From a virus, in IMG/VR virus record IMGVR_UViG_3300000325_000011, positions 8,793 to 28,911 of that record: a stretch of DNA of 20,119 bases, one strand, 5' to 3'. The notes beneath the pieces are model-generated. The model searched no databases. It saw nothing but the letters and a program-made list of their open reading frames with translations, and was not told the origin of the DNA. Positions within the stretch are counted from its first letter, which is position 1; each line of letters opens with the position of its first letter. A program made the position numbers and the translations under genes. This document shows positions 2,972 to 17,596 of the stretch, one piece after another.

Positions 2972-4240
2972 ATGGCTATTACTGACACACAAAAAATTGA
3001 TTATCTTTGGAAAAAGATAGGTTACGCCGCAACTAAAACAGATACAAATGCGAATAAAAAAGCACCTAACGAAGCCATAGCAAGTCCGCTACCGTTACGT
3101 GCTGATAAAGTTTGGAAACTAGCTAGTTCAATACCTGCTACACAACCAGGCAGTAGTAGTAGTCCTTTAACAGTTTATCCAACATCTGCGCCAACAGAAT
3201 GTACTGCTGATGTTACAGCAACAACAAGTAGAACATGGAAAACTGGATTAACTGATTGGATACCGCCTGAATTTGGTTCTACATATCTAGTAAAAGTTTA
3301 TGTTCATACTTCAAGTAATGCGGGCTCTGCCGCAGGCAGTGGAGATACATTGTCTGCAACAGGATCAGGAAATAATGACGAATGGTTCTTTGATTATCAA
3401 AGTGGAGTATTACATTTTATTGGTACTAACCTACCTAATGGTATAAGTTTTTCCGGTAAAAGCGTTTATATAGCTGGTTCAAGATATACTGGTGAATTTG
3501 GAGTAGGCGGTGATACTGGTGCATATACGTTTACTGATAACCGCATACAAACAACCAGTACAAACGAAGAAATTATTATAGAGCCAGCCGGTACAGGTTA
3601 TGTTGCTATTGATGCATCAAGTGGATTAATTGTACCTGTAGGAACAACTGCACAACGTCCTAGTGGACAAGCAGGTATGTTGCGTTTTAATGAACAAACA
3701 TCAGTATTAGAAGTTTACAGCGGAAGTTCATGGGGTAATGTTGGTGCAGGAGGCAGTACTGTTACAGTCGATGACTTTACTGGAGATGGAAGTGATACCA
3801 CGTTCTCACTATCACAAACTGGATCAGCTGGCAGTGTGATTGTTAGCATAAACGGTGTTGTTCAAGAAACAGATACATATGGAATTAGTGGAACTACATT
3901 AACGTTTAGTGAAGCACCAGCTAATGGTGACTCAATTCAAACTAGAAACTTTTTTAGTGGTGCTACAGTCAATGTTGCAAAACTACAAGACGCTGACGAA
4001 GATACTAAGATACAAGTAGAAGAAAGTTCAGACGAGGATACTATAAGATTCGATGCTGCTGGTACTGAAATAGCAACGATGACTAGTAGCAAAACAGAAT
4101 TTGCTACCGCAGTTCAATTAGCAAGTTTGACAACTACTCAGCGTAATGCACTTACTGCTGCCAATGGTATGGTAATTTATAATACTACAACCAGCAAATT
4201 CCAAGGATATGCTGGTGGATCTTGGGTAGACTTCCATTAA
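2972..4240 (+). CDS. Phage structural (fibre-like) protein, 422 aa
   Basis: Virion structural protein. The N-terminus (residues 1-55: KIDYLWKKIGYAATKTDTN, KKAPNEAIASPL, ADKVWKLASSIP) is a conserved head domain I recognise from structural proteins of marine T4-like phages, probably an attachment domain. Residues about 188-215 hold the repeat DNRIQTTSTNEEIIIEPAGT. After this come GTTAQRPSGQAGMLRFN, an FTGDGSDTTFSLS..VSINGVVQ beta module, and a DTKIQVEESSDEDTIRFDAA segment. These last three blocks recur in the same order in the 1274-aa fibre. The C-terminus repeats the tail-fibre theme (TTTQRNALTAANGMVIYNTTT..FQGYAGGSW). It is co-transcribed with the 947-aa gene. Its TAA stop overlaps the stop codon of the convergent protease gene by two bases. 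Confidence 0.82.
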   Translation: MAITDTQKIDYLWKKIGYAATKTDTNANKKAPNEAIASPLPLRADKVWKLASSIPATQPGSSSSPLTVYPTSAPTECTADVTATTSRTWKTGLTDWIPPEFGSTYLVKVYVHTSSNAGSAAGSGDTLSATGSGNNDEWFFDYQSGVLHFIGTNLPNGISFSGKSVYIAGSRYTGEFGVGGDTGAYTFTDNRIQTTSTNEEIIIEPAGTGYVAIDASSGLIVPVGTTAQRPSGQAGMLRFNEQTSVLEVYSGSSWGNVGAGGSTVTVDDFTGDGSDTTFSLSQTGSAGSVIVSINGVVQETDTYGISGTTLTFSEAPANGDSIQTRNFFSGATVNVAKLQDADEDTKIQVEESSDEDTIRFDAAGTEIATMTSSKTEFATAVQLASLTTTQRNALTAANGMVIYNTTTSKFQGYAGGSWVDFH

Positions 4241-5304
4241 GGAACAGTTAACTCGGTTGTTATAATTGTTTTTAGTATAACTACATTCCCAACATTAGGA
4301 ATATTTCGTAATATTTGCACTTCAATTTCTGCTAATGGTCTTACATCGTCCATTGCTTTACCTAAATCTTCAGGCCTGTTAATAACAACGCCGTTGATTT
4401 TTTGAATTATATCGTTTTTTCTAAATCCAGCCAACGCCATAGGCCCTCCCTCCTCAACGCCATTAATAATAACTAATCCAGTGGTTTTATCTAAAATAAA
4501 TGCTAGTCCTAGTTTTCCTCTTTTAACCTTGCCTTTTTCAATTAAAGTGTTAATAATTGAAACTGCACGATTACTAGTAACACTAAAATTAACACCAATG
4601 CTTCCAGTATGATTTGGACTTAAAATAAAACTATTAATACCAATAACGTTACTATTAGCATCAAGCAAAGGGCCGCCGCTATTTCCCTGATTTATACTAA
4701 CATCTGATTGAATAACTTCTTGCCAAGTATTTGCAATACGTTTTTTAACTGAACTTACAATTCCTTGTGTAATAGACCATTCTTGACCAAGTGGATGACC
4801 AATAGCAATTACTTGCTCACCTTGCACTACGTGGTCGCTGTTTCCAAACTTTAAAGGAGTTAATTTTTCTAAAATAGTTTGACCTTCTGTAGTTTCCATT
4901 TTTAAAACTGCAATGTCACTAACCTTATCTGTGCCTACTATTATTGCTCGATGTTGTTTTAAATTATTTTTAAAACCAATATAAAGCGCAGTGTTTGGTG
5001 CGCTATTAGCAACATGATCATTAGTAATTAAGTATTTTATGTTGTTGATTGAAACAACAAAACATGTACCAACTCCAGTAGTTGGAACTGATTGGTGCTG
5101 GTATAAGTTTGGCAACTTAAATTTTTCAAATGGATTTTCACTATTACTCTTACTGTCAATAACCACAGTTTCTTGCGAAAACTCAACTAAACATACACTG
5201 TCAATAGTATTCTTAACAACATCCTTGAAACTATGAGCACTAACATTACTTGAGTAAGAAAGTGCCAATAGCACGACCGCTGCTCGCATCAAATTGGTCC
5301 ACAT
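4237..5304 (-). CDS. Secreted HtrA/DegP-like trypsin-family serine protease with PDZ domain
   Basis: Likely periplasmic or secreted serine endopeptidase of the S1C (HtrA/DegP) family. Residues 1-23 look like a signal peptide: Arg7, a hydrophobic core AAVVLLALSY and a cleavage site after NVSA. The trypsin-like domain (about 25-255) has all three catalytic residues: His97 in ITNDHVA, Asp130 in VSDIAVLK and Ser209 in NQGNSGGPL. GHPLGQEWSITQGIVS is the typical HtrA strand. A single PDZ domain spans about 263-348 (LGLAF, GGPMALAGFRKNDIIQKING). Full-length DegP has two PDZ domains, so this is the shorter DegS-like layout. The ATG at 5304 has AGGA 9 bases upstream. It overlaps the zinc-ribbon gene by 59 bases and ends tail to tail with the 422-aa gene. 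Such an enzyme inside a fibre cluster is unusual. It could process fibres or host envelope proteins, or act on periplasmic proteins during infection. Family call is firm; role is inference. Confidence 0.9.
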   Translation of the reverse strand: MWTNLMRAAVVLLALSYSSNVSAHSFKDVVKNTIDSVCLVEFSQETVVIDSKSNSENPFEKFKLPNLYQHQSVPTTGVGTCFVVSINNIKYLITNDHVANSAPNTALYIGFKNNLKQHRAIIVGTDKVSDIAVLKMETTEGQTILEKLTPLKFGNSDHVVQGEQVIAIGHPLGQEWSITQGIVSSVKKRIANTWQEVIQSDVSINQGNSGGPLLDANSNVIGINSFILSPNHTGSIGVNFSVTSNRAVSIINTLIEKGKVKRGKLGLAFILDKTTGLVIINGVEEGGPMALAGFRKNDIIQKINGVVINRPEDLGKAMDDVRPLAEIEVQILRNIPNVGNVVILKTIITTELTVP

Positions 5305-7917: not shown

Positions 7918-10900
7918 ATGGCTATTACGAGAATTAAAACAGATCAGATAACTGATTCTGCTGTTACTACAGGAAAAATTGCAGATGATGCGATCACAGC
8001 AGCAAAATTAGCTGATTCGATCACATATGGTAGTGACTTAACAATCTCTGGCAATTTAACAGTTAGCGGAACAACCGTTGCTGTTGCGACTACGAACACC
8101 AGGGTTGATGATGCCATAATCTCATTAGCCCAAGGTACTTCTGGTTCACCAAGTGAGGATGCAGGTATCCTTATCGACCGCGGTTCAAGCGACAACGTTG
8201 CATTTTTATGGGACGAGTCAGCTGACCAATTTATTTTAAACAACGTCGGATCAGAAGACGGCGACACAGCAGGTAACGTCACCTTAGGTGCTTACCAAAA
8301 CTTACAATTAGGTACACTTACTTTTGCCACTCTTAATGATGGCACGACCGCAATGACATCTACTACTGCAGAATTGAACTTAATTGATGGTTCAGGTGCT
8401 GGTACAATTGTTAACAGCAAGGCAGTAATTTACGGCTCAAGCGGTGAAGTTAATGCAACTACACTACAAATTGGTGGTTCAAGCATTACATCAACAGCTG
8501 CTGAACTAAATCTTGTTGATGGTATAACCGCAGGTACAGCAGCAGCTAGTAAAGCAGTTATACTTGATGGTAGCAAAGATATTGCTGGCCTTAATGACGT
8601 TAGTGCAGCAGGTATTACACTTAGTGACTTAACTGACAACCGTGTTGTGATTGCTGGTACAAGTGGTATTCTTGAAGATGATGCCAACTTTACATTCGAC
8701 GGTACTACATTTACCGTTGGTGGTGGTGATATTTCAGTATTCAGTGCAACTGTTGCTGGTGTTGGTAATTTTGACGGTGCATTAACCGTTGATGGATTAC
8801 TAAGTGCTGATGGCGGCCTTAATACAAATGACGACTTTACAGTTGACACAGACGGTAACGTTGTTGCTGTTGGATTAGTAACAACTGGTGTTATGGACTT
8901 TAACAACACTACAGAAGCAACAAGTGCCACAACTGGTGCTGTTCAAATAGCAGGTGGTGTTGGTATTGCTAAAGACCTTTGGGTTGGTATTGACCTTGAC
9001 GTTGTTGGTGCTACTACACTTGACGGTGCAGTAACATTAGGCAACGCTTCCGGCGATGCAGTTACAGTCACAGGTACAGCAACATTTACCCCAAGTGCAG
9101 ACTTTGACGGTGGTTTCACTGTTGCAGGTTCACAAACAATTAACATGGGTGCAAACAGAGTACAAGCTGTTGCAGATCCAACCTCGGCACAAGACAGTGC
9201 TACAAAAGCATATGTTGATAGTCAAGTTAGTTCAGGTTCAAGTTTAACAATTGCCGCTGATACAGGGTCAAACGACACTGTAACAGTTGGTACAGACACA
9301 CTAACATTTTCTGGCACAAGTAACGAAGTTAACACCGCAGTTACTAACAATACTATTACAATTGGTTTACCAGATGATGTTACAGTTGGCGGTGTACTTA
9401 CAGTTACTGGTAACTTAGTTGTTAACGGTACTACAACTACACTTTCATCTACAAATACAGTTGTTGAAGATACACTTATCGAACTCAACACAGGTGCAGG
9501 TTCAAATGCAAACGATATGGGAATTATCATGGAACGTGGTTCCACTGGTGATAACGCTATCTTTATGTGGGATGAAAGTGCAGACGGGTTCCAAGTTGGT
9601 ACAACCACAGCCGTAGCAAGTGCAACAGGTAACATTAGTGTAACAGATGCTCCATTTGCAGCAGCCGCTATTACATCCAGTGGTGTTGTTACAGCAACTG
9701 GCTTTACTATTGGTAGTGCAGTTATTAACGAAGCAGAACTAGAGACAATTGACGGCATTACTGCTGGCACGGCCGCAGCAAGTAAAGCAGTTGTACTTGG
9801 CGGTTTTAAAGATATTACAGGTATTGGTACTGTTGGCTGTGGAGCAGTGACATCGACTGGTGTTGTTACTGGAACAGGGTTTACTATTGGTAGTGCAGTT
9901 ATTAACGAAGCAGAACTAGAGACAATTGATGGTGTTACGGCAGGTACAGTAGCAGCAAGCAAGGCTGTCGTAGTTGATGCAAACAAAGACATTGCTAGTT
10001 TCCGTAATCTCGGCGCAACCGGAGAAACTACACTAGGAAGTGCTATTGTTAGTGATCTAACTGACAACCGTATTGTGATTGCTGGTACATCAGGCGCACT
10101 AGAAGACGATGCTAACTTCACATTCGACGGTACAACGTTTACTGTTGGTGGTGGTGATAGTACTGTGTTTAGTGCTACAGTAGCTGGTGTTGGTAACTTT
10201 GATGGTGCATTAACAGTTGATGGACTTGCTAGTTTAGATGGTGGAATTAACACCAATGACGACTTTACAGTTGACGTAGACGGTAACGTTGTTGCTGTTG
10301 GATTAGTAACAACTGGTGTCATGGACTTTAACAACACTACAACTACAACAAGTGCTACAAGTGGTGCTGTTCAAGTTGCTGGTGGTGTTGGTGTTGCTGA
10401 AAACATTTATGCAGGTGGCACAATTACTGCTACTGGACAAATTCACGGCGATGCAACTACGACTTCAACTAGTGTAACAACTGGTTCTGGCGTATTTGAC
10501 GGTGGCTTAGGTGTTGCAGAAAACATCTTTGCAGGTGGGTTTATTAACACTGCTGATGACCTTAGAATCTTAGCAGATAATAAGCAACTTGAAATTGGTG
10601 CTGGTACAGACTTTACTATCGGACACAATGCTACAGATACAACTATTGCCAACGCAACTGGTATACTTGCTATTAATAGTGCAGGTGGAATCCGTATCAA
10701 CGAAGACAGTGCTAACGTAGACGTTGTTATTGAATCCAATGATAACGCTACTATGTTTATGGTAGACGGTTCTGCTAACAATGTTGGTATTGGTGGAGCA
10801 CCTAGTGCAAACGCCATACTTGATATTACAGGCACAGGTGCCATGATTATTCCAGTAGGAACAACTGCACAACGTCCAACAGGTGAAACAGGACAATTTA

Positions 10901-11835: not shown

Positions 11836-13839
11836 ATGGCACTTACTATGCCCAAAGCTAGTCAAATTAATTTTGATTTAACTAATATCTCAGATCCGAT
11901 TATTAGATTAAACAGCGGTGAAAGTGGAAGTGCTGATAAAGATACTGGTATAGTATTAGAACGTGGCAGTGATACAAACGTTGCATTACTATACGATGAA
12001 AGTGCAAACCAGTTTGCACTAGTTAATACTAACGAAGATGGTACAACTAGCGGCAATGTTACTATTGCAAGCTATGCTCCTGTCAAACTCTCAAATCTTG
12101 TAATTGCTGATGCTGGTAATATTGGATCAGCAAGTGATACAGATGCTATTGCTATTAGTTCTGGCGGCGTAGTAACTATGAATCAGATACCAGTATTCAG
12201 TGCCGGTATCAACGTCTCTGGTGGAACCATAGCAGGAACTCTTGCCACTGCGGCCCAAACAAATATTACTTCACTTGGCACATTAACTGCTCTTACTGTT
12301 GATGATGTTGCTATAAATGGTAAAGTAATGACTATGACAGGGTCAAGTAGCGATACTGCCGTGTTTACCGTTGGTACAAATGGTACACTTTCAATTGTTA
12401 CTACTGATACTGCCGCGGCAGCGGCTAACATTCAAATTACTGCTGATGGTACTGCCGAACTTGCAGGTACTACAGTCACATTAGATTCTAGTGGTGGAAT
12501 TACTCTTGATGCAGACAATGGAACAATTACATTTGCAGATGCTGGTGTTTCGTTAGGTACAATTACTTCTTCGGGGTATACCGGAAATGTAGTTGGTAAT
12601 GTAACAGGTAATGTAAGTGGTACAGCCGCAACCGTTACAACAGCCGCACAAACAAATATTACTTCACTCGGTACATTAACAACATTAACAGTTGATAATA
12701 TTATTATAAATGGCGCAAATATTGGTCATACATCCGATACTGATTCGATTGCTATTGCCGCTGATGGCGTAGTTACAATGAATCAAATACCTGTGTTTAG
12801 TGCAGGTATTAATGTGTCAGGTGGTACTATTGCTGGTACATTAGCAACTGCCGCACAAACAAATATTACAACTGTTGGTACACTAACTGCATTACAAGTA
12901 GATAATATCAATATTAACGGTAATGCAATAACAAGTACTGCTGGTATTGATCTAACGATTACCCCATTGGCAGGTCAACAGATTGTTCTTGATGGAACAA
13001 TTGTTGTTGATGCAGGAGTAGTCACCGGTGCAACGAGTATCACATCAACTGCATTTGTTGGCGATTTAACTGGTGATGTTACAGGTAATGCTGATACATT
13101 TACAGCAACAGCAAACAATTCTACAAATGAAACAGTTTATCCTGTTTTTGTAGATGGAGCAACTGGTACTCAAGGAGCAGAGACAGATACAGGGCTAACT
13201 TACAATCCATCAACGGGACTTCTTACTTCAACTGGATTCTCAGGGAACTTAACAGGTACACTACAAACTGCTGCTCAAGGCAATGTAACATCGTTGGGAA
13301 CATTGACAACGCTGACCGTTGATAATATCATCATTAATGGAACAAACATTGGTCACACTTCTGATACTGATGCCATTGCTATTGCCGCTGATGGTAAAGT
13401 TACGTTTAGTCAAGAAACAACTGTTACAACAGCTATTACACTAAATGCACAAGCAGATCTAAGATTTGCTGATGCAGATAGCAGTAATTGGCTTGCATTC
13501 CAAGCACCAAATACCGTGGGTAGTAACGTAACATGGACTTTACCATCAGCTGATGGTACTGAAGATCAAGTACTAAGCACAAATGGCAGCGGCACACTAG
13601 CTTGGGCTGATGCTGGGTCGGGTGGCAGTTCAAGCGCCAGTAGTTACCCCAACAGTACAGTTTCAACAATGCCAGGTAGTGCCGGTAACTACGACTTAGG
13701 AAAAAACACAGCTCAAGATACAGCAGAGACACCATTCGAAGCAGGTGGCGCAGATGCATTTGGAGTTAACTTAGGAACAGTATATAGTATGATGGATCCT
13801 GCTGGCACAACAACCACAGTTGATCTTGGTACGATGTAG
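11836..13839 (+). CDS. Modular tail-fibre protein with internal repeats (667 aa)
   Basis: Fibre-like structural protein. The head MALTMPKASQINFDLTN is followed by a DTGIVLERGSDTNVALLYDE module that is shared with the 1274-aa fibre. The central part holds repeats: VVTMNQIPVFSAGINVSGGT occurs twice, 600 bases apart, and TAAQ(T/G)N(I/V)T(S/T)(L/V)GTLT occurs four times. Most of these are followed by DNIIINGxNIGHTSDTD-like segments. Near the C-terminus, ADLRFADADSSNWLAFQAPN and WTLPSADGTEDQVLSTNGSG form a module I recognise from many marine phage fibres, followed by a Gly/Ser linker. The terminal 60 residues (YDLGKNTAQDTAETPFEAGG) have no recognised fold. AAGGAG is 6 bases before the ATG. The 187-aa gene follows after 25 bases. 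Confidence 0.83.
   Translation: MALTMPKASQINFDLTNISDPIIRLNSGESGSADKDTGIVLERGSDTNVALLYDESANQFALVNTNEDGTTSGNVTIASYAPVKLSNLVIADAGNIGSASDTDAIAISSGGVVTMNQIPVFSAGINVSGGTIAGTLATAAQTNITSLGTLTALTVDDVAINGKVMTMTGSSSDTAVFTVGTNGTLSIVTTDTAAAAANIQITADGTAELAGTTVTLDSSGGITLDADNGTITFADAGVSLGTITSSGYTGNVVGNVTGNVSGTAATVTTAAQTNITSLGTLTTLTVDNIIINGANIGHTSDTDSIAIAADGVVTMNQIPVFSAGINVSGGTIAGTLATAAQTNITTVGTLTALQVDNININGNAITSTAGIDLTITPLAGQQIVLDGTIVVDAGVVTGATSITSTAFVGDLTGDVTGNADTFTATANNSTNETVYPVFVDGATGTQGAETDTGLTYNPSTGLLTSTGFSGNLTGTLQTAAQGNVTSLGTLTTLTVDNIIINGTNIGHTSDTDAIAIAADGKVTFSQETTVTTAITLNAQADLRFADADSSNWLAFQAPNTVGSNVTWTLPSADGTEDQVLSTNGSGTLAWADAGSGGSSSASSYPNSTVSTMPGSAGNYDLGKNTAQDTAETPFEAGGADAFGVNLGTVYSMMDPAGTTTTVDLGTM
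12181..12270 (+). repeat. Protein-level repeat copy 1 in the 667-aa fibre (30 codons)
   Basis: Encodes NQIPVFSAGINVSGGTIAGT and then LATAAQTNIT. It is identical in protein sequence to 12781-12870, but 20 of the 30 codons differ synonymously. Confidence 0.88.
12781..12870 (+). repeat. Protein-level repeat copy 2 in the 667-aa fibre (30 codons)
   Basis: Second copy, 600 bases (200 codons) downstream of the first. All 30 residues are the same as in copy 1, with 20 codons changed. See the separate finding. Confidence 0.88.
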
Positions 13840-13864
13840 TAAATAATTTAAAAGGAATTTAATT

Positions 13865-14428
13865 ATGCCAACAACATTACAATTTAGAAGAGGTACAACT
13901 GCTCAAAACAATGCATTCACTGGCGCCGCTGGTGAGTTGTCAGTTGATTCAACACTGGATACAGTAAGAGTACATGATGGATCAACTGCTGGAGGTTTTC
14001 TACTAACATCTCGTACATCCTTATACGCTGATATTGCAGAACGTTATTGGGCTGACGGTGTATATGAACCAGGAACTGTACTAGTATTTGGTGGAGAAAA
14101 TGAAGTTACTGTTTCTACACAACCACAAGACACTAAGTTTGCTGGAGTAGTATCTACAGAACCCTATGCTATCATGAATAGCCCAAACAGAGAACCAGAC
14201 TTAACAGATGAGATGCATCCAGCATTAGCTCTTATAGGACGAGTTCCTTGCAATGTATCAGGATTTGTAAGAAAAGGAGACTTAATTGTAACTAGTACTG
14301 AAGTTGGTGCAGCCATGGCATGGCGTGATGAAAGCAATCCTCCGACAGGCAGTGTTATTGGCAAGAGCTTAGAAGACAAAGATGATAAAGCAGTAGGAGT
14401 TATTGAAGTAGTCGTTGGAGTTAGATAA
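13865..14428 (+). CDS. Short fibre/tip protein: RRGTT head plus YADIAE C-terminal domain (187 aa)
   Basis: Residues 1-50 (LQFRRGTTAQNNAFTGAAGE, LSVDSTLDTVRVHDGSTAGG) form the RRGT..GEL..D...V.DG head found at the N-terminus of many phage fibre, hyaluronidase-like and tropism-determinant proteins. Residues about 53-187 (YADIAERYWADGVYEPGTVL, FAGVVSTEPYAIMNS, LIGRVPCNVSGFVRKGDLIV, GSVIGKSLE, GVIEVVVG) match the last 123 residues of the 1274-aa fibre. The protein is therefore a head joined directly to a tip domain, with no shaft. AAAGGA lies 8 bases before the ATG. A weak late-promoter-like AGTAAATA lies at 13838-13845. It may be a short fibre or a tip that assembles with a longer one. Confidence 0.8.
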   Translation: MPTTLQFRRGTTAQNNAFTGAAGELSVDSTLDTVRVHDGSTAGGFLLTSRTSLYADIAERYWADGVYEPGTVLVFGGENEVTVSTQPQDTKFAGVVSTEPYAIMNSPNREPDLTDEMHPALALIGRVPCNVSGFVRKGDLIVTSTEVGAAMAWRDESNPPTGSVIGKSLEDKDDKAVGVIEVVVGVR

Positions 14429-14433
14429 CAAAT

Positions 14434-15189
14434 ATGTTTAAGTTTTATACGGCAGATTACGAGGGAGAGATGGTTTCAGATAGTCTGCATTGGAGAGACG
14501 GAAACAAAGATTCTAACGGAGTGTGGATACCAAAAACTGTTTTAAACGACGATCATACTAAAACCGCACACATTATAGGAAACGGTCCGAGTCGCGAAAA
14601 AATAAATTTGTTTTTACTTGACGGTCAGTCTGGCGGCGAAGGCGGTATTACCAGTGTTGGGCAATCTTATGGTTGTAACCAAACATTTGAAGAGTTTAAT
14701 CCTACGTTTTTATTCTGTGTTAATACTGAAATTTTAGAACAAATGGTGCTTACTGGCTATTATGAAGACAATATTGTGTATACAACTAGAAATAACTTAT
14801 TAAAGTTTCCAGGAAAGTTTCATCTATATCCACACTGGCAAAAGTTATACATGGGACCAGCAGCAATGCGTATGGCTTGTGCAGATGGACACAAAAGAGT
14901 ATACTTAATTGGTTTCGATTTTTATTTTGGAGAGGTGCATCATCTATACCCAGCAACTGACACTTCTTACTTGCCAATGGGAAATACAGAAACACTCCGG
15001 TCTAAACTTCTTAAGCAAGTATGTAACATAATTAAGTTATACGATGATGTTGAATTTTTTCATGTACTTAATACATTTAACAACAAGGTTGAACATCAAT
15101 TTGAGGAGTTTAAGTGGTTGCCAAATATTAAACCGATTGGTCTATTTGAGTATACAAACCAAACTGGACTAGGTGCTGTAGCCAAATAA
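14434..15189 (+). CDS. DUF115/MptE-like protein (251 aa)
   Basis: Cytoplasmic protein resembling the DUF115 (6-hydroxymethylpterin pyrophosphokinase MptE-like) group. That group also includes motility-associated Maf-type proteins linked to flagellin glycosylation. Supporting motifs are HIIGNGPSRE at residues 46-55 (a Gly-rich nucleotide-binding-like loop), GQSYGCNQTF at about 76-85 and YMGPAAMRMACADGHKRVYL followed by IGFDF at about 139-163. That is the sequence order of the family. No signal peptide or membrane segment is seen. It starts 5 bases after the fibre gene's stop without a convincing ribosome binding site, so translational coupling is likely. Its 3' end overlaps the convergent Nudix gene by 21 bases. 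Position suggests a role in modifying fibre proteins or glycans, but this is inference; a nucleotide-related enzyme is also possible. Confidence 0.65.
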   Translation: MFKFYTADYEGEMVSDSLHWRDGNKDSNGVWIPKTVLNDDHTKTAHIIGNGPSREKINLFLLDGQSGGEGGITSVGQSYGCNQTFEEFNPTFLFCVNTEILEQMVLTGYYEDNIVYTTRNNLLKFPGKFHLYPHWQKLYMGPAAMRMACADGHKRVYLIGFDFYFGEVHHLYPATDTSYLPMGNTETLRSKLLKQVCNIIKLYDDVEFFHVLNTFNNKVEHQFEEFKWLPNIKPIGLFEYTNQTGLGAVAK

Positions 15190-15612
15190 CTCTGAAATAG
15201 TTGTTATCTTTGCTCGTATCTCATTAACATTAATAGTATTAAATACTCCAGGATGCAACGGCCTTGGCCAACTGTCTATAGTTGTCCAAGCATAACCTTT
15301 ATGTTCTGTGTTTAGCATAGGTATAAATTCGCCTTCAACTACAGTAACAAAAGTGTGATATTCAAACTTTTTCTTTGTATTGATAAACTTTTCAATAGGA
15401 ATATGTTTTTCTACTTCACCAGTAAAGTTAATTTCTTCATGAATTTCTCTCATTAACCCTTGTATAATAGACTCATGTGGCTCTAGCTTCCCGCCAACAA
15501 ATGCCCAGGTGTTATCAAAACTAGTTTCGCTTCGTAATAAAAATAAAAATCTCTGTGTAGATTTGGCAAAAAATACAGTGCCAACACTTTGTTTTAAATT
15601 ACTATTGTCCAT
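15169..15612 (-). CDS. Nudix hydrolase (147 aa)
   Basis: Hydrolase of nucleoside diphosphates linked to another group. The Nudix box GX5EX7REUXEEXGU is visible at residues 41-63 (GKLEPHESIIQGLMREIHEE). The metal-binding Glu residues 56, 59 and 60 are intact, while the box's second Gly is Asn62. The usual strands are present: VGTVFFAK, RFLFLLRS and WAFVGGKL before the box, and YHTFVTVV and YAWTTID after it. Family members clean up oxidised or non-canonical nucleotides or decap nucleotides; the substrate cannot be predicted here. The start at 15612 overlaps the end of the gp15-like gene by 19 bases, with AAGG at suitable spacing. The last 21 bases overlap the convergent DUF115-like gene. Confidence 0.88.
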   Translation of the reverse strand: MDNSNLKQSVGTVFFAKSTQRFLFLLRSETSFDNTWAFVGGKLEPHESIIQGLMREIHEEINFTGEVEKHIPIEKFINTKKKFEYHTFVTVVEGEFIPMLNTEHKGYAWTTIDSWPRPLHPGVFNTINVNEIRAKITTISELFGYST

Positions 15613-16997
15613 TCTCCGGCCTTGTATTCGCCTTCGTAACTCTTAAGCCATGCATCACCAGTCCATTTGTACTGGATTCCTGTATTAGTATTTGTCATAT
15701 AGTGTACACCCGTTTGGGTACTACTGTCAAATACTATATTCCAACGTATGCCGTCATATTGAATAATATCATTTGCTCCAGCTATAAAATCATTGCCAGA
15801 TGTATCTTTCCAAGCATCAGGCCCGTCAGTATTACTAGCATCACCAATACTGTTAAGGATTAAATACCGCTGCCCAACTGCCTTCGCGTCTAAACCAACG
15901 CTTGGTCCCACTTTTAATGGATTAATAATTTTAAGTACTGGATCTAGATCGTTAGTGGGAATAGTATCTTCATCTAATGTAAACAATAATTTACTGTCGT
16001 CACTAGGGTGGTGTGCTATTGTTCCAACTATTTCGCCAGTACCAAAGTCAATTCTTATTTGACTAATTCCTGATTGCAACTCACCATATTGATTAATTAC
16101 TGCTCGCCAAGTAATAAGATCTCCAGTTCCTGCCTTTGCAGGCGGATCGTTTGCAATACTAGGTTCAGACTTATTAGTAACAGTCTCGTGTCTCTCTAGT
16201 ATTTCTATCGTGCTTCCTAGTAGTAAAATACCATAATTCATAGGTGTAAATTTTAGTCTTGTACCCATCAATATGTCTTGATCAATAACGCCGTCGCTTA
16301 AATCTCCTGACTCGTCAAATATGCTAGCAACAATCTTAGATACTACGCCGAGTTTCTTAACTTTAGCTGGTGGTGAAAGCCATACTGGTAACATAAATTG
16401 CAAAGTTGCAATATCAATTAGGTCGTCTACACCAACTGGCACTGCTCTGCTACTCCAAGTAGTTTGCTGTAACTCAATATAACTTAAACTTCCCCAATCT
16501 AGGTAGTTGTCTGTGCTTTGTATTTCTAAAGCAGGATTAAATAATACAAGGATTTGCTCTAATAACTGTAATTTCTGTGTAGTATTGCTAGTCCAAATAT
16601 CAACTGTCATTGTTAAATTATATGGAACAGGCATATGACGTTCTACGCTAAATGCATTGCCTTGTTGTGTATTATACTCTCCAGTATTATCATCAAATTG
16701 TCTCATTCGAATATGACGCTTGTCTACAAACGTAGGCTCTTGCCTGCGTTCTGGATTGTATTCCATAGCAGAAATGTAACAACTAATCATTGGACTAGGG
16801 TTAATCTTGTTTTCACTATTCTCTTTAATAATACTGCTAACAATACGTGTTGAGTCGCCGTACTTAACCGGCACAGTTACAAGGGATACATTGCCAGCTC
16901 TGTCTTTGCCATACTCAATCTGAAAATTACTAAATGCACGGATAAACTGTAACAGAAATCTTCTAATTTGTTGGTCGTAAAAGAATTGCATCGGCAT
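15594..16997 (-). CDS. 15: gp15-like tail sheath stabiliser and completion protein
   Basis: Homologue of T4 gp15, which caps the contracted or extended tail tube and sheath and joins it to the neck. Residues about 4-40 (FFYDQQIRRFLLQFIRAFSN, FQIEYGKD) match the gp15 start. MPVPYNLTMTVDIWTSN followed by LEQILVLFNPALEIQS matches the gp15 core (SPIKMIYELSIFTR..QILPYF). T4 gp15 is 272 aa, so this 467-aa protein has a C-terminal extension of roughly 190 residues with modules such as VGQRYLILNSIGDASN, NDIIQYDGIRWNIVFD and IQYKWTGDAWLKSYEG. ATG at 16997 is preferred over the GTG at 17000 because it overlaps the preceding TGA by one base (TGATG). It lies downstream of gp14 and the homing endonuclease. 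Confidence 0.82.
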   Translation of the reverse strand: MPMQFFYDQQIRRFLLQFIRAFSNFQIEYGKDRAGNVSLVTVPVKYGDSTRIVSSIIKENSENKINPSPMISCYISAMEYNPERRQEPTFVDKRHIRMRQFDDNTGEYNTQQGNAFSVERHMPVPYNLTMTVDIWTSNTTQKLQLLEQILVLFNPALEIQSTDNYLDWGSLSYIELQQTTWSSRAVPVGVDDLIDIATLQFMLPVWLSPPAKVKKLGVVSKIVASIFDESGDLSDGVIDQDILMGTRLKFTPMNYGILLLGSTIEILERHETVTNKSEPSIANDPPAKAGTGDLITWRAVINQYGELQSGISQIRIDFGTGEIVGTIAHHPSDDSKLLFTLDEDTIPTNDLDPVLKIINPLKVGPSVGLDAKAVGQRYLILNSIGDASNTDGPDAWKDTSGNDFIAGANDIIQYDGIRWNIVFDSSTQTGVHYMTNTNTGIQYKWTGDAWLKSYEGEYKAGEWTIVI

Positions 16998-17596
16998 CAC
17001 TTATCCATCCATACTCGTTTGCCATCTACAAGTTTCCAAGTTTTACCTTTTACTTTCGCCGCAAGTTTTTGTAAATGATCTTTGTTTTGTTGTGTATATT
17101 CTTTGCTTGTATATCTTTTTTGTGCCGCTTTTTTATACTTTTGTATAGAATCTTCACTGTGAGACCACAAACCTGAAGTTCCTTTTATAGGATGTGCTTT
17201 GCCCTTCATAGCACCACCATCTCTACGAGTCCAGCCACCAACATTATTTTCTCTGTGTCTTTTTAACTGTGCTTGGCGCATTCTTTCAATGCTTTCTGGA
17301 CTGTGTGTTTTGTTGTTTCCTGCTTCACGATTGTTATATACGACAGTTTTTTGTCTATAATGTGCCAACCACTGTGCTTCTTTTTCGTTTAGTTCATCTA
17401 AGTTTTTGGCGGTATCAATAACTTCCCAATTAAAACTTTCTTTACCGTATTTTCTAATACTATCATACAAATAAGTCTTTTTGCCTCGTCTAGCATCGGC
17501 TAAGTGAGCATACCAACGCATTTTAGGATTAGATTGGATTGTTTGTCCAACATAAACTTTATTGTTTTCTTTGTTTGTAATAATATAGATGAGCAT
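16997..17596 (-). CDS. Free-standing GIY-YIG homing endonuclease (199 aa)
   Basis: Site-specific mobile nuclease resembling T4 Seg enzymes. The GIY-YIG domain covers residues 1-95: LIYIITNKENNKVYVGQT (with IYI and YVG as variants of the two signature triads), the catalytic Arg in KMRWYAHL, the metal-binding Glu in LDELNEKEAQW and the conserved Asn in VVYNNREAG. DNA-binding NUMOD3-type repeats follow (THSPESIERMRQAQ, WSHSEDSIQKYKKAAQ), then a basic tail ending KGKTWKLVDGKRVW. It sits between gp14 and gp15 with TGATG stop/start overlaps on both sides, so it is translated from the late neck transcript. The family commonly cleaves phage relatives lacking the gene and thereby spreads. Confidence 0.9.
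   Translation of the reverse strand: MLIYIITNKENNKVYVGQTIQSNPKMRWYAHLADARRGKKTYLYDSIRKYGKESFNWEVIDTAKNLDELNEKEAQWLAHYRQKTVVYNNREAGNNKTHSPESIERMRQAQLKRHRENNVGGWTRRDGGAMKGKAHPIKGTSGLWSHSEDSIQKYKKAAQKRYTSKEYTQQNKDHLQKLAAKVKGKTWKLVDGKRVWMDK

Follow-up and report, generated by a model that had tools for sequence, protein, structure and literature searches.

The two identical peptides encoded in a 667-aa tail-fibre-like gene of this virus most probably (a probability of about 0.7) represent two separately descended, strongly constrained copies of one module, joined in a single gene by cassette shuffling. The gene lies within the window, the whole stretch of 20,119 nt analysed here, which is part of a virus record of 37,535 bases. 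The same 30 residues, NQIPVFSAGINVSGGTIAGTLATAAQTNIT, are encoded at 12181-12270 (copy A) and 12781-12870 (copy B), and translation of both agrees; 20 of the 30 codons and 21 of the 90 bases differ, and every change is synonymous. Chance could not plausibly give an identical 30-mer; its source is homology. The identical peptide is in fact longer than the 30 residues described by the sequence-only reading: with GVVTM in front it comprises 35 residues, and 22 of the 34 degenerate codons of this core differ between A and B. Around the core, a 71-residue unit aligns without gaps between the copies, with 56 of 71 residues identical (79%) and 71% identity in DNA. At the DNA level this is a direct repeat of 215 nt with 71% identity (12118-12332 and 12718-12932; Table 1).

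Table 1. Parts of the 667-aa tail-fibre-like gene, with positions in the window.
Feature	Position	Strand	Basis
Mosaic tail-fibre-like gene, 667 aa, holding both copies	11836..13839	+	ORF; patchy homology to relatives
N-terminal block (residues 1-87), shared with syntenic relatives	11836..12096	+	42-74% identity over residues 1-88/90; DNA matches stop at 12077-12078
71-residue unit A	12118..12330	+	Ungapped against unit B, 56/71 residues
Copy A, frozen 35-residue core	12166..12270	+	Same peptide as copy B, with 22 differing codons
Downstream partner of copy A, class D0, TMTGSSSDTAVFT...	12331..12569	+	Join recurs in many other viruses
71-residue unit B	12718..12930	+	Ungapped against unit A, 56/71 residues
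Copy B, frozen 35-residue core	12766..12870	+	Same peptide as copy A, with 22 differing codons
Downstream partner of copy B, class D1, TSTAGIDLTITPLAGQQIVLDG...	12931..13098	+	At most 86% DNA identity to L039 over 12828-13098; D1 joined elsewhere to other upstream modules
Third repeat, partial: linker and VDNIIINGTNIGHTSDTDAIAIAADG, without the NQIPVF core	13255..13416	+	Identical-peptide pairs with unit B; 173-nt repeat
C-terminal block, kept in syntenic relatives, with a sharp junction at 13418	13418..13836	+	L021 and L321 match only from 13418

The silent sites of the two copies are saturated and on the high side, and their excess over saturation is not significant. Under NG86, pS between the copies is 0.84 over 30 aa and 0.79 over 35 aa, where dS is saturated and not computable; over the 71-aa unit, dS is approximately 2.0 and dN is 0.17. 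Independent codon draws predict 16.4 +/- 2.6 differing codons of 30 if usage is taken from the rest of the gene, copies excluded, and 16.5 +/- 2.6 if it is taken from all fibre-like genes in the window. The observed 20 lies at z of about 1.3. Among all family pairs, the A-B core pS of 0.79 falls at the 88th percentile, and the pS of 0.70 over 71 aa ranks 60 and 66 of 92. Within a 21-residue core the copies differ at 16 codons, a difference of at least 16 being found in 4% of between-contig pairs (distinct encodings). Expected counts, NG86 values and the family entropy given below bear out the earlier claim of strong protein constraint on both copies together with saturated silent change. The neighbouring 1274-aa fibre does carry the exact 50-base repeat reported from the sequence (at 9703 and 9880), and also a second exact repeat, of 42 bases, at 8850 and 10278. 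The repeats of that fibre are much younger than A and B, with 84% identity over 300 nt between 8621-8920 and 10049-10348.

The unit is a member of a widespread tail-fibre module of marine phages. A 12-residue seed, NQIPVFSAGINV, searched as a degenerate DNA pattern, matched in 90 viral contigs; the same pattern had no match in bacterial and archaeal genome contigs. Protein constraint with free silent sites is family-wide, because entropy in the core is low and distinct encodings are many. Averaged over the 35-residue core, protein entropy is 0.28 bits, a value made partly circular by the search pattern, versus 0.62 before the core and 1.25 after it, and 39 distinct encodings of the 21-aa core occur in the family. 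Residues 22-33 are fixed by the search pattern at many loci, so that their invariance is partly circular; GVVTM lies outside the search seed and is invariant in 93 of 93 instances. Copies of the module on the same contig range in core pS from identical (L211) through 0.28 (L061) and 0.79 (the window) to 0.88 (L092), which is the spread expected from duplication and import at all ages. At 12187-12189 and 12199-12201 in copy A, which encode residues 24 and 28 of the 71-aa unit, codon choice hardly varies within the family (ATA in 88/93 and AGT in 85/93), whereas the unit's other Ile and Ser codons do vary. In the core of copy A (12166-12270), 12 of 35 codons have G or C in third position, versus 3 of 44 in the sequence directly flanking it (Fisher p 0.003, for a contrast picked post hoc); this excess may reflect a separate origin of the core.

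The setting of the gene is that of phage tail genes, with neighbours that match the PHROG tail sheath and sheath stabiliser families; other neighbour matches are to the T4 gp9/10 N-terminal domains and the Mtd N-terminal domain. The 667-aa protein itself had no Pfam or PHROG family match and no PDB sequence match. Unit A and its downstream partner, modelled as a monomer from 31 sequences, consist mostly of strands and loops (mean pLDDT 80, pTM 0.56). Fold searching of the unit A model against PDB returned no significant match (best E 1.4), the top insignificant ones (E >= 1.4) including phage endosialidases, a Bdellovibrio fibre and the lambda central fibre. The same search of BFVD gave four matches below E 0.001, with 28-49% sequence identity, to uncharacterised or unnamed proteins. 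The repeats, the position of the gene among tail genes and a weak hint from the model together suggest a shaft role for the module, which may be a trimeric beta shaft. Two further genes of the window lie on the minus strand. A homing-endonuclease homologue (17000-17596; PHROG, GIY-YIG) adjoins the tail-sheath-stabiliser-like gene, and is absent from the sibling L021, which matches to 16982 and again from 17593 with 11 bases between. A serine-protease-like protein (4237-5304; PHROG protease match, GNSGGPL motif) is encoded between fibre-like genes, on the strand opposite to them.

Homology within the 667-aa gene is patchy and has sharp junctions, and one module occurs in different combinations, as seen in the matrix of upstream and downstream segments at a short linker. 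Relatives were found via the neighbouring tail-sheath-stabiliser-like gene or a 187-aa gene downstream. In most syntenic relatives, the fibre matches over residues 1 to ~88 and ~530-667, and the middle, with both copies, is mostly different. The sibling L021 is 95.6% identical over 13418-16982, with 23 identical bases after the join at 13418, and its fibre upstream of that base is unrelated. Because the more distant L321 begins to match at the same base, 13418, and shares its upstream modules with L021, the window's line would be the likelier one to have switched its fibre middle, after the split from L021, by parsimony over the three sequences. Other edges of DNA matches to other viruses lie at 12077-12096, ~12245-12320, 12713-12742, 12908, 13098 and 13414.

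The linker, AAQTNITSLGTL and variants of it, is 12 residues long and was found in 209 distinct instances in the fetched loci. When the segments upstream and downstream of it were clustered at 40% identity, the upstream and downstream classes proved to be widely combined. The NQIPVF class is followed by D0 26 times, D2 26 times, D3 nine times and D1 three times. Four linkers occur in the window, with joins U0-D0, U2-D2, U0-D1 and U11-D2, copy A leading to D0 and copy B to D1. The linker may be a shared stretch at which cassettes exchange, i.e., a crossover site, with the caution that a boundary of conserved sequence alone also ends matches there. The only clean junction seen, at 13418, sits at another shared segment and not at the linker.

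Copies A and B are each nearer to copies in other viruses than to one another. The sequence-only reading had proposed comparing the copy-to-copy silent distance with orthologue distance. The A-B silent distance is larger than that from either copy to certain copies in other viruses: over 71 residues, pS is 0.70 for A-B versus 0.50 for A-L033 and 0.39 for B-L012. In protein, A shares 67/71 residues with L046, and B shares 62/71 with L300 and with L017, compared to the 56/71 shared by A and B. Among 86 other members of the family, A has 74 that are nearer to it than B, and B has 19 that are nearer to it than A. A recent intragenic duplication was rejected on the core pS of 0.79 and on the nearer relatives of each copy in other viruses.

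We infer that A and B were acquired separately and not duplicated long ago. The module would be a conserved, probably structural (shaft) part of marine myovirus tail fibres, in which purifying selection would keep 35 residues almost unchanged in many viruses, with silent sites left free to saturate. A and B would stem from separate module lineages with their own downstream partners, D0 for A and D1 for B. Cassette exchange at short shared segments would swap the middle of the gene, approximately residues 89-528, while the N- and C-terminal ends stay, and would have brought A and B into one gene. Silent codon changes would then stand at saturation because A and B come from different, old lines of a module that is shuffled. 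Against this reading, all protein differences between A and B fall in the core's flanks, and these may have recombined alone; the imported middle could also have carried both copies already. For the A cassette at 12096-12713 and the B cassette at 12742-13098, no donor above ~87% DNA identity was found, and separate acquisition was therefore not caught in the act.

The alternative that survives best, although we consider it unlikely, is an ancient duplication in place, in an ancestor either of the gene or of its middle's donor, followed by silent saturation under protein constraint. The ungapped 71-residue unit shared by A and B fits such an event, and clear module duplications exist elsewhere, e.g., in L211, where the copies are 207 nt apart and have identical cores. 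In trees A and B are not sisters, and constraining them to be sisters is not rejected (AU p 0.35 for DNA and 0.14 for protein); 71 residues with saturated silent sites carry little signal, and phylogeny alone leaves the matter undecided. What argues against this duplication is that each copy is nearer to other viruses' copies both in protein and at silent sites, that the downstream partners of A and B differ and each pairing exists elsewhere, and that the middle of the gene is replaced relative to L021 and L321. The original suggestion of an old duplication thus stands only in the wide sense that the module lineages are old; the copies themselves look like separate family members. Independent acquisition, which had been named as the contrary case, is nearly reached, with both copies in a middle that is replaced in syntenic relatives, and the AU tests leave room for an ancient duplication.

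The sequence-only reading had also suggested that selection favours codon divergence, such that copies with similar DNA are lost by repeat recombination and the codons of the survivors are pushed apart. This appears very improbable for A and B, which stand on the high side of the family (88th percentile; over 21 codons, 4% of between-contig pairs differ at least as much) but just z 1.0-1.3 above independent codon choice. L211 and the neighbouring fibre gene, moreover, carry near-identical copies, although one tandem, in L077, reaches z +4.06. We surveyed 279 intragenic identical-peptide pairs of at least 20 residues in 90 non-redundant ORFs, a set that may include antisense frames and in which pairs from the same gene are not independent. 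Values of z > 2 were found in 5 pairs versus 6.4 expected if all were saturated, and z > 1 in 19 versus 44; the dropping of identical repeats by short-read assembly would, if anything, inflate apparent divergence. The closest-spaced class was the least codon-diverged, and spacing and divergence overall gave a Spearman coefficient of 0.08 (p 0.16). With no surplus over saturation in the survey, the idea of selected codon divergence lacks support, and as a general rule it was rejected. A literature search on codon divergence between repeats turned up nothing relevant. In its codon aspect the A/B finding is ordinary, and selection is not needed.

The L077 tandem (ORF from base 1346, plus strand; residues 913-950 versus 999-1036) has a period of 86 aa, with 32 of 38 identical residues differently coded. 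Its z, taken against the gene's own usage, is by far the strongest in the survey, and its relatives L075 and L079 reach z of about +2. It is very improbable, if conceivable, that tandem modules in some marine phage fibre genes are stable since only copies with over-diverged codons survive recombination, L077 being a trace of this and A/B a weaker one. Finally, an assembly artefact, in which short-read assembly joined fibre pieces of two viruses, might be suspected of a metagenomic record with repeats and a mosaic-looking gene, but is scarcely credible given that contigs L004 and L005 (possibly from related samples and methods) have the same arrangement at >99.9% identity.

These results show that module copies within one gene, though identical in protein, can have diverged silently as much as copies from unrelated viruses, and it follows that intragenic repeats need not be in-place duplications. 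They also name, for the fibres of marine phages, a frozen core of 35 residues and a joint of 12, and what fixes these is a concrete structural question.

In T4-type phages, parts of tail fibre genes are exchanged at short homologous or conserved segments, best known at the receptor-binding distal end. Fibre parts of the window gene likewise appear to be exchanged at short homologous segments, but here the middle is swapped and the ends are kept. The pelagimyophage host recognition cluster and the matching cyanomyophage region form a hypervariable tail-fibre island in marine T4-like phages (PMC7029224), and the window similarly has several fibre-like genes near a tail-sheath-stabiliser homologue. 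A difference is that cultured phage records match this fibre in short pieces only. Phage receptor-binding proteins (tail fibres and spikes) show domain mosaicism, with homologous fragments across otherwise unrelated fibres and ongoing shuffling (Smug et al., 2023; PMC10684548). Cassette shuffling is thus an already known mode of receptor-binding protein evolution, and A/B would be a clear example of ordinary fibre mosaicism. The window gene shows the same shared fragments and shuffling, and differs from the fibres of that study in that one short module is present several times, with the silent divergence of its copies measured here, and in joins that show a recurring 12-aa linker.
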